64,000 nt of DNA, from assembly GCF_003403315.2 (NCBI RefSeq), contig NZ_CP048407.1, positions 1,736,001-1,800,000 of the forward strand, given 5' to 3'. Position numbers and translations under genes: made by a program. Below, one piece after another: positions 1,002-16,035 of the stretch (position 1 is the first letter of the stretch; each line of letters starts with the position of its first letter). The stretch comes from Thermaerobacter sp. PB12/4term (GTDB lineage: Bacteria > Bacillota > Sulfobacillia > Thermaerobacterales > Thermaerobacteraceae). The notes below the pieces were generated by a model. The model was not told the origin of the DNA. It made no database searches and worked only from the letters and a program-made list of their open reading frames with translations.

Positions 1002-1976
1002 CTAGCGGCCTAAGAGATCTTGCAGCGCCGGTTCGACCTCCGGGAACCGGAAGCGGAAGCCTGCTTCCCGGGCCCGGCGCGGCACGGCCCGCTGGCCGCT
1101 CAAGAGCAGGGCGTCGGCCATCTCCCCCAGGGCCAGGCGCAGGGCAACGGCCGGCGCCGGCAGCCAGGACGGCCGGCGCAGCACCCGCCCCAGGGCCCGG
1201 GCGAGGTCCCGGCTGGTCACCGGCTCAGGCGCCGTGCCGTTGAACGGGCCTTCCAGGTCCGGCGTTTCGATGAGGAAGGCGAACAGGGCCACCAGGTCGT
1301 CCAGGTGGATCCAGGGCATCCACTGCCGCCCATGACCCAGCGGTCCGCCGGCGCCCAGCCGGAAGGGAAGAACCAGCCGGGGCAGGGCGCCCCCCTCCCG
1401 GGCCAGGACGAGCCCCGTCCGCACCAGGACCACCCGCACGCCGGCCGCTCCGGCCTTGCGGGCCTCGGCTTCCCAATCCACGCAGACCCGGCTGAGGAAG
1501 TCGTCCCCCGGCGGCGCTTCCTCGTCGATCACCTCGTCGCCTCGGGGCCCGTAGTAGCCCACCGCCGACCCGCTCACCAGCACCGCCGGCCGGGGCTCGG
1601 CCGCCTCGATGGCCTGGACCAGCGCCCGGGTGGCCTGGATGCGGCTTTCCCGGATCCGCTCCTTCTGGCGCGGGGTCCAGCGGCCGGCGGCGATGGACTC
1701 CCCCGCCAGGTTGACCACCGCCCCCGCGCCGGCCACCGCCTCCCACCAGCCCGGCCGGGGGTCCCCGGACGCTACCGGTTTCGCCGTCCAGGACAGGTAG
1801 CGCAACGGCCCTCCGCCGCCATCCGCCCCCTCCCCGGCCGCCGGGCCGGCCGCCGTACCCGCGGGCCCGCCCTTGGCCCCCCGGGTGAGGATCACCACCT
1901 CATGCCCCTGCGCCTGCAGCCGGCGGGCGAGGGCCGATCCGATCAGGCCCGTGCCGCCGCTGATCACCACCCGCAT
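1002..1976 (-). CDS. TIGR01777 family epimerase (SDR39U1/YfcH type)
   Basis: This 324-residue protein is an extended short-chain dehydrogenase-like protein of unknown substrate. The N-terminus has the dinucleotide-binding GGTGLIG at residues 8-14. Family-specific stretches follow: [22 protein letters not shown] and SGSAVGYYG. The C-terminal 50 residues ([19 protein letters not shown] onward) match the DUF1731 tail of this family. A GAGGGAGGGAC ribosome-binding site precedes the ATG. It is convergent with the upstream methyltransferase and divergent from the MFS gene. The family's physiological reaction is not established, so only the fold is claimed. There is a small Gly/Ala-rich insert near residues 40-55. 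Confidence 0.9.
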
Positions 1977-12919: not shown

Positions 12920-13636
12920 TCAGGACCCCTCCTCCACCCGTGGGGACGAACCGGCCGGCACCGCCTGCGGGTCCGCAGCCGCCGGCACCGCCGCCGGGCG
13001 GCCCTGGGGCCCCGGCGGCGTGGGCCGGGGCTGCACCCGGCGGCGCTCGGCCTGGAGCCGGCCGGCAATGGCGAGGAACTGCTGGAGAATGTCCCGGCCC
13101 TGGGGCGTCAGCACCGACTCGGGATGGAACTGCAGGCCGTAGACCGGCCGGTGCCGGTGCCGCAGGCCCATGATCAGGCCGTCGGCGGTCCAGGCGCAGG
13201 CCTCCAGCTCGGGGGGCAGGCTGGCGGGGTCGACCACCAGGGAGTGGTACCGGCCGGCCTCCAGGGGCGAGGGCAGGCCCGCCAGCAGTCCCGTGCCGTC
13301 GTGGAACACCGCCGACGCCATGCCGTGGACGGGCTCCGGGCCCCGCACCACCCGGCCCCCCAGGGCGGCGGCGATGGCCTGGTGCCCCAGGCACACCCCC
13401 AGCAGGGGGCGACGGGCATCCAGCCGGCGCACCACCTCCATGGAGCAGCCGGCCTCGTGGGGAGTGCAGGGCCCCGGGGAGAGGACCACCGCGTCGGGAT
13501 CCCGGGCCTCCACCCCCTCCCCGTCGATGGCGTCGTTGCGGAAGACCTCCACCCGGGCACCCAGCTCGGCCAGCAGCTGGACCAGGTTGTAGGTAAAGGA
13601 GTCGTAGTTGTCGATCACCAGCACCCGCAGGCTCAC
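12920..13636 (-). CDS. trpG: Anthranilate synthase glutamine amidotransferase subunit
   Basis: TrpG supplies ammonia from glutamine to TrpE. The class I amidotransferase triad is present: the Cys in LLGVCLGHQAI, and His and Glu in GLQFHPESV. VIDNYDSFTYNL opens the protein. GTG 13636 overlaps the trpE stop as GTGA, with AAGGGGGT upstream, so it is translationally coupled to trpE. A Pro/Arg-rich tail of about 45 residues follows the enzyme proper. This is the TrpG/PabA type and could also serve folate synthesis, but the context is tryptophan. Confidence 0.95.
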   Translation of the reverse strand: MSLRVLVIDNYDSFTYNLVQLLAELGARVEVFRNDAIDGEGVEARDPDAVVLSPGPCTPHEAGCSMEVVRRLDARRPLLGVCLGHQAIAAALGGRVVRGPEPVHGMASAVFHDGTGLLAGLPSPLEAGRYHSLVVDPASLPPELEACAWTADGLIMGLRHRHRPVYGLQFHPESVLTPQGRDILQQFLAIAGRLQAERRRVQPRPTPPGPQGRPAAVPAAADPQAVPAGSSPRVEEGS

Positions 13637-15426
13637 GCGGGATGACCCCCTTCCCCTGCCGCCACCGCCGCGGCCGCGGGCCCGGCGGGCGCCCCCTTGG
13701 CGACGGGGCCGGGGGCAAGGGGCCCGGTGACCGGGCCGGAGCCACCGGCCGGGGACGAACCGGCGGCCGGGCCCCCGGCGGCCAGCCCCCGGCCGCCGCC
13801 GGCAACGCGGGCGGACGCCAGCGCCGGGCCGGGTTCGTCCGGCAGACGGGACGTTGCCTTGCCCAGGGCGGCCGCCAGGGCCAGGGCCCGCAGCCCCGAG
13901 CGGGCCTTGGCCTCCGTCTCGGCCCACTCGCCCTCCGGTTGCGAGCCGGCCACCACGCCGGCCCCGACCTGCAGGAACCCCCGGCCGGCATGGAGCACCA
14001 GGGTCCGGATGGCGATGCACATGTCCAGGTCGCCGTCGTAGCCCAGATACCCCACCGCCCCGCCGTAGGGGCCGCGGGCCACCGGTTCCAGCTCGTCGAT
14101 GATCTCCATGGACCGCACCTTGGGTGCCCCGGTCAGGGTGCCGGCGGGAAAGCAGGCGGCCAGGGCGTCCACGGCGTCGCGGCCTTCCGCCAGCTCGCCG
14201 GCCACGTCGGAGGCCAGATGCATCACGTGGGAGTAGCGCTCCACCGCCATGAACCGCTCGACCCGCACGGTGCCCGGGCGGCACACCCGGCCCAGGTCGT
14301 TGCGGCCCAGGTCGACCAGCATGGTGTGCTCGGCCCGCTCCTTGGGATCGGCCAGGAGCTCACGCTCCAGGGCCCGGTCGTCCTCCTCGCCGGCGCCCCG
14401 GGGCCGGGTGCCCGCCAGCGGCCGGGTCAGGGCCCGCCGGCCCTCCACCCGCACCAGGAGCTCGGGCGAGGCGCCGAGCAGTGTGGTCTCCCCGTCAAAG
14501 CGCAGGAAGAACATGTAGGGGGAGGGCGAGATCGCCCGCAGGGCCCGGTAGAGGTCGAGATCCTCCGGGACCGCGCTGCCGGCACCGGCAGGTCCCGCCG
14601 CCGCCGGCACGCCCCCGGCGCCGGCGGGCCCGACCACCGCCGGCCCGTCTCCGGCGCCCGCTGCGGGAGGCCAGGCGAACTCAAGCCGGCGGGAGAGCAC
14701 CACCTGGAACACGTCCCCGGCCCGGATGTACGCCTGGGCCTGGCGCACCGCGGCGAGGAAGTCCTCCGCCGCCATGTTGCTGTGCAGGCCGGCCGGGACC
14801 ACGGCCTGCGACCCGGCGCCGCCGTCCAGGCGAAGAAGGGGCCGGGGCGGCAGGGGCGCTTCCAGGGCGGCCAGGGCTTCCTCCAGCCGGCGCCGGGCGG
14901 CCCGGCGCGCTTCTTCCTCGGACCGTCCGGGAAGGACCAGCACGGGCGCCATAAGGTAGAGCCGGTGGGTGCGGTGATCCAGCACCGCCAGCAGGGCGCA
15001 CTCCATGAACCGGGCGACGGGGAGCAGGGGATCGGCGGGGGGCCGCCCCGGCAGCCGCTCGAGGAAGCGGACGGCATCGTAGCCCAGATATCCCACGGCT
15101 CCGCCGGCGAAGCGGAAGCCGGGGGCGACCGGGCGCCGGGGGACGAACCGGCGCAGGGCGGCGAAGGGGTCGGCCGGCCCGGGCGTGACGTCGAGGACGG
15201 TACCGCCGGGTTCGTCCCGGTGGTAGACCACCGACCCCGAGCCGGTGCAGACCAGTTCCCGGACCGGCCGGGCACCCACGTACGAATAGCGCCCCGACCG
15301 CTCGCCACCGCCCAGGCTTTCGAGGATGAATCCGGGCCCGTCGCCGGCCAGCCGCCGGAACAGGGTCACGGGCGTCTCCTGATCCAGGGCCAGCTCCAGA
15401 ACCAGGGCCGCGGGTGCACTTGCCAT
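13633..15426 (-). CDS. trpE: Anthranilate synthase component I
   Basis: TrpE makes anthranilate from chorismate and ammonia. The 597-residue protein has the tryptophan feedback-binding motif (ILESLGG at about residues 34-40) and a conserved chorismate-binding domain: SPSPYMFFL, RPLAGTRPRG, LVDLGRNDLGRV, FPAGTLTGAPK and GGAVGYLGYDG. ATG 15426 follows GAGAGGAGA. A Gly/Ala-rich insert (about residues 255-290) and a C-terminal tail of about 75 Ala/Gly/Pro residues are unusual. It is the first gene of the operon, controlled by the T-box leader upstream. Confidence 0.96.
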   Translation of the reverse strand: MASAPAALVLELALDQETPVTLFRRLAGDGPGFILESLGGGERSGRYSYVGARPVRELVCTGSGSVVYHRDEPGGTVLDVTPGPADPFAALRRFVPRRPVAPGFRFAGGAVGYLGYDAVRFLERLPGRPPADPLLPVARFMECALLAVLDHRTHRLYLMAPVLVLPGRSEEEARRAARRRLEEALAALEAPLPPRPLLRLDGGAGSQAVVPAGLHSNMAAEDFLAAVRQAQAYIRAGDVFQVVLSRRLEFAWPPAAGAGDGPAVVGPAGAGGVPAAAGPAGAGSAVPEDLDLYRALRAISPSPYMFFLRFDGETTLLGASPELLVRVEGRRALTRPLAGTRPRGAGEEDDRALERELLADPKERAEHTMLVDLGRNDLGRVCRPGTVRVERFMAVERYSHVMHLASDVAGELAEGRDAVDALAACFPAGTLTGAPKVRSMEIIDELEPVARGPYGGAVGYLGYDGDLDMCIAIRTLVLHAGRGFLQVGAGVVAGSQPEGEWAETEAKARSGLRALALAAALGKATSRLPDEPGPALASARVAGGGRGLAAGGPAAGSSPAGGSGPVTGPLAPGPVAKGAPAGPAAAAVAAGEGGHPA

Positions 15427-15473: not shown

Positions 15474-15516
15474 CCGAAAACAAGCGGCGCCTTCCGTCCG
15501 GGGACGGAAGGCGCCG
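15474..15516 (-). terminator. Second (distal) T-box terminator
   Basis: A GC-rich hairpin with 14-base arms (GGCGCCTTCCGTCC and its complement, loop CCGG) occupies 15486-15515. It is followed on the minus strand by CTTGTTTTCG, a moderate U tract. It directly follows the second T-box sequence, as expected for an attenuator, and lies about 50 bases before trpE. Confidence 0.8.
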
Positions 15517-15518
15517 TT

Positions 15519-15537
15519 CCGTGGTGCCACCCCAATT
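15519..15537 (-). promoter_or_regulatory. Second T-box antiterminator sequence
   Basis: The minus strand reads AATTGGGGTGGCACCACGG, the conserved T-box core. Its TGGC can pair with the GCCA 3' end of uncharged tRNA-Trp. The 148 bases between the first terminator and this element show no AGTA motif and no distal-loop (GAGAGCC-like) motif, so this looks like a second antiterminator/terminator module without its own specifier stem. Confidence 0.8.
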
Positions 15538-15684
15538 AGGTCCACCGGGCGCGCACCCGCCTCGCGGCCGGCTGCCTCGACAGCGGCCGGGAGGCGGCAG
15601 GGTGCCTGTCGGGGACCGCGGTGCCGGCTGAAAGGACCGCGCCGGTGCCTGGGGGTGCCTGGGCAGCGCGATCCAGGCCGGCCC

Positions 15685-15720
15685 AAACAAAAAATCCCTT
15701 TCGCCTTCGGGGCGAAAGGG
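15685..15720 (-). terminator. First (proximal) T-box terminator
   Basis: The hairpin CCCTTTCGCC / GGCGAAAGGG with a CCGAA loop (15696-15720) is followed on the minus strand by ATTTTTTG, a strong U tract. It is the intrinsic terminator of the first T-box module. Confidence 0.9.
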
Positions 15721-15725
15721 TGCTT

Positions 15726-16000
15726 CCGCGGTGCCACCCGAGTTAGGCCGGTGGGCCTCACTCGTTCGGGTACGGGCTTTACGCCGATACCCTCCCCCGG
15801 GTCACGGTGGGGGCTCCGGCAGGGCCTACTGGCGGCCGGGCAGGACGGGCGCCGCGTTCGGCCTGCGGCTTGCGGGTCCATTCAGCGTGCCCTGTGACGG
15901 ACCGGCCTCGCACCATCCCGGATCCCCGGGTCGCCGGCTCGCTGGCCGCCGGTACACGCCTACTCGTCCCGCGCATTGCCTTTGGCGAGCTGAGCTGTTG
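15726..16000 (-). promoter_or_regulatory. trp operon T-box riboswitch (tRNA-Trp), complete first module
   Basis: The leader senses uncharged tRNA-Trp and prevents termination. On the minus strand, in order: the AGTA motif (15964-15961), a distal-loop-like AGCGAGCCGGCGA (15943-15931), a specifier loop GAATGGACC with Trp codon TGG at 15880-15878, and the T-box AACTCGGGTGGCACCGCGG at 15744-15726. The TGGC in the T-box matches a tRNA with discriminator G, as in bacterial tRNA-Trp. The order and spacing fit canonical T-box leaders. Confidence 0.92.
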
Positions 16001-16006
16001 CCTCGG

Positions 16007-16035
16007 ATTGTAGAAGGACCCGCCGCAGATGTCAA
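16007..16035 (-). promoter_or_regulatory. trp operon promoter
   Basis: The minus strand reads TTGACA (16035-16030), a 17-base spacer, then TACAAT (16012-16007). This is a 6/6 -35 and 5/6 -10 match. Transcription would start near 16000 and give a leader of about 575 bases before trpE. It lies in the short gap after the htrA stop. Confidence 0.9.

Follow-up and report, generated by a model that had tools for sequence, protein, structure and literature searches.

A tryptophan T-box leader of Thermaerobacter with one tRNA decoder and two antiterminator/terminator modules that may share a Stem III strand

How a single tRNA decoder can serve two terminators placed in series is the question raised by the trpE leader of Thermaerobacter sp. 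PB12/4term. The window analysed is a stretch of 64,000 nucleotides (contig NZ_CP048407.1, positions 1,736,001 to 1,800,000) of a genome that consists of one contig of 2.82 Mb, and the leader is located on its minus strand at approximately 16000-15485. About 575 nt of leader separate a near-consensus promoter from trpE (ATG at 15426), which is followed by other trp genes according to the list of open reading frames. Judged from its sequence, the leader is probably a partially tandem transcriptional T-box, in which one tRNA-Trp decoder precedes two discriminator/terminator modules in series (Table 1).

The RF00230 covariance model matches the leader once (15985-15705, minus strand; full length of the model, 1-219; 36.7 bits, E 2e-6), and the same search of the leader region found no second Stem I. 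The match falls below the curated RF00230 cutoff of 93 bits, a shortfall that carries little weight because no T-box of the same genome reaches this score. Scanning of the leader predicts one promoter (11/12 consensus matches) and two terminators, compared with 0.4 terminators in shuffled sequences. Exact T-box cores are present at 15738-15727 and 15531-15520, spaced 207 nt from core to core, and these are the only two in the 64 kb; the motif is short enough that its occurrence alone is not improbable. Pairing analysis indicates that antiterminator (GGG-UGGCACC-GCGGAAG/CUUUCGC-CCC in module 1, GGG-UGGCACC-ACGGAA/UUCCGU-CCC in module 2) and terminator are mutually exclusive in both modules, the 5' strand of each terminator being the 3' strand of the corresponding antiterminator. 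The tRNA-Trp of the genome has the anticodon CCA, which pairs with the UGG specifier, and a G-CCA end that fits the UGGC bulges of both modules. The leader therefore displays the AGTA sequence, Trp specifier, UGGN bulge and exclusive antiterminator/terminator pairings of a class I T-box, and agrees with a preliminary description that had recognized AGTA, the TGG specifier at 15880-15878, and one specifier stem followed by two antiterminator/terminator modules.

Table 1. Features of the trpE leader, with positions in the window and the basis of each assignment
Feature	Position	Strand	Basis
Promoter TTGACA-17-TACAAT	16007..16035	-	consensus matches 11/12; shuffles 0
Stem I, single decoder (limits approximate)	15867..15985	-	RF00230 alignment
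AGTA, inside Stem I	15964-15961	-	sequence
Specifier UGG (Trp)	15878..15880	-	sequence and tRNA-Trp anticodon CCA of the same genome
Purine string GAGUG (RRRxG), 5' of Stem III	15759..15763	-	motif as given in passages of PMC7583486
Stem III of module 1, AGGCC-CACC-GGCCU	15745..15758	-	sequence and pairing analysis
Antiterminator 1, T-box bulge UGGCACC at 15736-15730	15709..15739	-	pairing analysis
Terminator 1, 10 bp then AUUUUUUGUU	15696..15720	-	terminator scan
Variable spacer, without Stem I, AGTA or specifier	15549..15695	-	RF00230 search and relatives
Proposed shared helix III*, 5' strand AGGCCCACCGG	15748..15758	-	pairing with 15548-15538
Proposed shared helix III*, 3' strand CCGGUGGACCU, then AA (15537-15536)	15538..15548	-	pairing compared with shuffles
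Antiterminator 2, T-box bulge UGGCACC at 15529-15523	15500..15533	-	pairing analysis and identity in congeners
Terminator 2, 14 bp then CUUGUUUUCG	15485..15516	-	-32.9 kcal/mol, z -4.3
trpE, first gene of the trp operon	13633..15426	-	ORF list; Pfam Chorismate_bind, Anth_synt_I_N

The double arrangement is found before trpE alone among the approximately 13 T-box leaders of this genome. These leaders (G000, L001-L020) are represented by 20 RF00230 matches of 16-91 bits, Stem I and antiterminator often being matched separately. Since all matches are below 93 bits, annotation that relies on the cutoff leaves this GC-rich genome without a single T-box.

Relatives were found through the TrpE protein, the leader being ignored in their selection, and all five genus or family members read (the window included) have the same layout. 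The distance from core to core ranges from 74 to 173 nt in four relatives, compared with 207 nt in the window. Over 58 nt of module 2, these four are identical to the window at 58, 57, 56 and 48 positions, with spacers (counted from one constant position downstream of core 1) of 97, 33, 5 and 104 nt, respectively, compared with 138 nt in the window; three congeners thus match module 2 at 56-58 of 58 nt across spacers of 5-97 nt. This conservation rules out the second core as an accident of GC-rich sequence, and the occurrence of the same plan in four other genomes of the genus and family, as well as in many unrelated ones, rules out an assembly artefact or a recent local duplication. Because the cores of one congener are only 74 nt apart, there is no space for a Stem I between them and the leader is not a decayed tandem; together with the RF00230 search, which returned no second match, this congener eliminates both a fully tandem T-box and a degenerate second Stem I in the spacer. 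The earlier proposal of a partial rather than a full duplication, against which a complete second Stem I in 15540-15690 was to have counted, stands: none was found with RF00230, and the layout is kept in relatives, including the one that lacks room for it.

Elsewhere in the class, leaders with one core and leaders with two cores both occur, and in one of them (L061) the two cores lie 374 nt apart. This leader (G007, oriented positions 761 and 1135) is an apparent full tandem T-box before trpE, with a second specifier-like stretch between the cores, and a full tandem of this type is a possible ancestor of the partial form.

The wider distribution was surveyed with a pattern of two T-box cores separated by a T-run, the reversed pattern serving as control. 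The two-core pattern was found in 16 of 154 genomes of the class at the shorter spacing and 11 of 154 at the longer, and in 15 of 398 genomes sampled across the phylum; the reversed pattern had no match in the class and phylum samples. A scan of 84,980 species genomes yielded 99 stretches (80 as loci), the majority of which are T-box leaders; many belong to Negativicutes and some to Clostridia and Chloroflexi, and the few chance matches (e.g., L121, L128, L141, L155, L165, L184, L189, L193) were dropped. Genes downstream of double leaders (named by reading the sequences where there was no Pfam match) include trpE, trpD, trpB-like and aroF-type genes, ilvB, and genes for aminotransferases, sodium:solute symporters, ABC binding proteins and a class II synthetase of Asn type. 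Conservation of the bulge in these leaders is biased by selection, because most of them were gathered with a T-box pattern; the set found through TrpE is free of this bias.

Several of the leaders gathered have peculiarities of their own. Four aminotransferase leaders of family f24 (L087-L089, L099) are double leaders without AGTA or obvious Stem I landmarks, and apparently carry an extra hairpin between the arms of the second terminator. In L104, L105 and L108-L110 the second modules also copy a CCCGUACC/CCGUAUC segment located after Stem II; the copy could form a further pairing with GGUAUC, which occurs once, in the Stem IIA/B region. L095 (G088), apparently the T-box leader of a leuS-like gene, has at 1654-1729 (minus strand) an entire tRNA-Ala (GGC) gene, located after the Stem I region and before the antiterminator. 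Bacillota-type double T-box leaders precede peptide-binding protein genes on two contigs labelled as a Candidatus Sumerlaeota MAG (L123, L147), a label that may be wrong because these look like the same loci as those of G176 in the phylum sample.

Passages of a T-box review (PMC7583486) describe the discriminator as 5'-RRRxG-Stem III-AA-3' plus the antiterminator, and report that the antiterminator alone has no appreciable tRNA binding. The purine string listed in Table 1 is the sole well-placed copy in the leader of the window. In most short-spaced double leaders, module 2 has no Stem III of its own and begins directly after the first U-tract, so that there is no local 5' strand for one. In many double leaders, the bases immediately before the second T-box can pair with the 5' strand and the loop of the module 1 Stem III, in the exact register of Stem III, a pairing designated helix III*: GGUUGUAAAACGAA/UUUGUUUUACAACC in L113 (65 nt from first to second core), GAUUUAUCCUGAAG/UUUCAGGAUAGGUC in L112, AGGCCCACCG/CGGUGGGCCU in G002 and G003 (10/10 pairs) and, in the window, AGGCCCACCGG/CCGGUGGACCU, with 10/11 pairs and one C.A mismatch (p 0.002-0.007 compared with shuffles). 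This shared strand was not part of the preliminary description.

Unanchored duplex energies were dropped as a test of III*, since they are too noisy in GC-rich RNA, where a long window yields other matches; instead, pairing was scored in 71 non-redundant double leaders with its position anchored in the register of Stem III and one defect permitted. The mean anchored score is 16.2, compared with 8.2 when second modules are swapped among the 71 leaders (Z 19.4), and the highest mean with swapped partners in 5000 permutations was 9.9. The signal is strongest where the cores are at most 95 nt apart (Z 17.8, compared with 4.3 for the rest). When the 3' anchor is slid along the leaders, there is one peak, 6 nt upstream of the core 2 GGG, with a score of 14.0 over a background of 5.26 (sd 0.75, maximum 6.97). 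The search pattern did not include the AA that follows Stem III; 60 of the 71 second modules retain it, compared with 14% in nearby 8-nt windows. Pairs with the loop of the module 1 Stem III, beyond its own 5' strand, average 3.55 compared with 0.76 (Z 17.6; n = 71), and because the 3' strand of module 1 itself leaves this loop unpaired, they argue against homology of module 2's 3' strand to module 1 as the whole explanation of the match. Counts of pair types were set aside as independent evidence of covariation, the leaders having been picked for low p.

It seems reasonably likely, from these pairings, that the leader operates as a relay in which the second discriminator is rebuilt on the shared strand of Stem III and the same tRNA is tested twice. 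Stem I would bind tRNA-Trp, as is established for T-boxes. The uncharged 3' GCCA would pair with the UGGC bulge of antiterminator 1 beside Stem III, permitting polymerase to pass terminator 1, and charged tRNA-Trp would lead to termination there. With polymerase past, terminator 1 would fold harmlessly behind it and the tRNA end would be released; the bases 5' of the second T-box could then take the 5' strand and loop of Stem III into the longer helix III*, beside the sole purine string. A second discriminator would thus be built on the same tRNA, which would face a further test at terminator 2. The chief consequence would be far lower read-through with charged tRNA-Trp, resembling two-step proofreading. 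The chances are about even that there is a widespread T-box subtype in which one tRNA-bound decoder and half of the discriminator serve twice, two successively transcribed 3' halves exchanging on one Stem III, and irreversible passage of terminator 1 making possible a kinetic proofreading by RNA only.

Let r_on be the read-through with uncharged tRNA, r_off that with charged tRNA, and f the uncharged fraction. One tRNA tested twice would give f r_on^2 + (1 - f) r_off^2, which changes linearly with f over a squared dynamic range, and independent tRNAs would give (f r_on + (1 - f) r_off)^2, which is steeper. Because two decisions on one tRNA are correlated, read-through would stay linear and only the leak would drop. 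The preliminary description had anticipated a steeper response to uncharged tRNA-Trp, which is unsupported as stated: a steeper curve would require an independent tRNA for each terminator, and module 2 presumably engages the one tRNA rather than a second.

The relay would not account for every double leader. A second module with its own purine string and Stem III is found in 19 of the 71 leaders, so that one shared-strand type for all is ruled out, and the presence of a complete second Stem III in about a quarter (e.g., L068, L073, L098, in which strand exchange is unnecessary) divides double leaders into two types. Shared pairing was scored in 36 of the 52 leaders without their own second Stem III, compared with 4 of the 19 with one (Fisher p 0.0004), counts that are approximate because the rule is mechanical, Stem III being misplaced in some leaders, and because the window itself was counted in the 19 on account of a weak local stem. 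In the other 16 of the 52, the automatic rule scored no shared helix as significant; Stem III is mis-anchored in some of them, and L107, L090 and L077 pair well by eye.

These counts bear on the best-surviving alternative, rather unlikely overall, that module 2 forms a small Stem III of its own from the spacer and that the decoder-bound tRNA swings over to it after terminator 1 folds. Besides the 19 leaders, which include that of a sister genus (G004) possessing both its own second Stem III (AGGTG-AGGTC..GGCCT-AA) and the shared pairing, it is favoured by a local alternative in the window that is predicted to be 1.9 kcal/mol better than III*. The free fold of the window leader does not form III*. 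The cost of 1.9 kcal/mol, obtained with terminator 1 and antiterminator 2 fixed as formed, arises because the long GC-rich spacer supplies other pairings, and module 2 of the window might instead use a local stem of this spacer. Against this stand the short-spaced leaders, most of which have no local 5' strand because module 2 abuts the U-tract, and the scores in the window, where the best local purine-motif stem reaches 11.8 and III* 25.0. In free folds, the shared helix belongs to the best structure in 46 of 77 leaders with short spacing and in 7 of 26 with long spacing. Under the same constraints as above, 10 of the 16 leaders examined accept III* at no cost or with a gain, and the other 6 pay between 1.7 and 7.6 kcal/mol, among them L091 (+4.2 kcal/mol for the extended III*) and L090 (+7.6 kcal/mol). 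The pattern expected of a shared Stem III is found in G002, G003 and the leader set overall, and the window presents 10/11 pairs with a mismatch, a cost of 1.9 kcal/mol and a weak local purine-motif stem.

That antiterminator 2 recruits another tRNA-Trp, contacted only at the 3' end, which would be sampled independently and would steepen the response as in a full tandem T-box, is very improbable: the UGGC bulge of module 2 is intact, but module 2 has no specifier with which to choose tRNA-Trp, and an antiterminator without Stem III is the very element reported to lack appreciable tRNA binding in the passages of PMC7583486 cited above. Also very improbable is a module 2 that acts as a tRNA-independent backup attenuator lowering basal expression, or that is a decaying remnant of a full tandem, despite the strength of terminator 2 and the apparent full tandem of L061, since a plain terminator needs none of the conserved bulge, AA, antiterminator 2 pairing and III*, and identity at 56-58 of 58 nt is unexpected of a remnant while the spacer varies from 5 to 138 nt.

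The leader of the window resembles known class I T-boxes (RF00230) in its AGTA-containing Stem I, UGG specifier, Stem II region, Stem III, UGGN bulge and terminator, and in its placement upstream of an amino-acid operon, but adds a further antiterminator/terminator that has no Stem I of its own; module 2 reuses half of Stem III in many relatives and plausibly also in the window. With fully tandem T-boxes, such as those of Bacillota trp operons (PMC12452182), it shares serial terminators before trpE and the same amino acid, but each unit of those has an aptamer, whereas here the aptamer is single. It is almost certainly of the same general kind as the "partially tandem T-boxes" named by Zhang 2020 (PMC7583486, section 8), whose mode of action is stated there to be unknown; the passage that names them gives no anatomy, mechanism or shared Stem III strand. 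No description of a shared Stem III was found in the literature searched, the likeliest sources (Vitreschak 2008 and Gutierrez-Preciado 2009) being outside its scope, and it is only the shared strand and the relay that appear to be novel. The III* pairing would give partially tandem T-boxes a concrete, testable mechanism, relevant to many leaders, spread over several bacterial groups, that precede genes for tRNA synthetases, transporters and the biosynthesis of amino acids.

Published overviews of tandem riboswitches (PMC9481103, PMC12452182) describe repeated aptamers on one platform or repeated complete riboswitches, and the architectures of PMC9481103 comprise cooperative aptamers, pseudo-cooperative and bi-mechanism arrangements, and logic gates. 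These are similar to the leader of the window in that repeated RNA elements control one operon in series, but none is one aptamer with two expression platforms, a layout missing from the classifications examined. Set beside them, the relay, if true, would be a natural case of an RNA that tests one ligand repeatedly, which would be useful for the design of low-leak switches.
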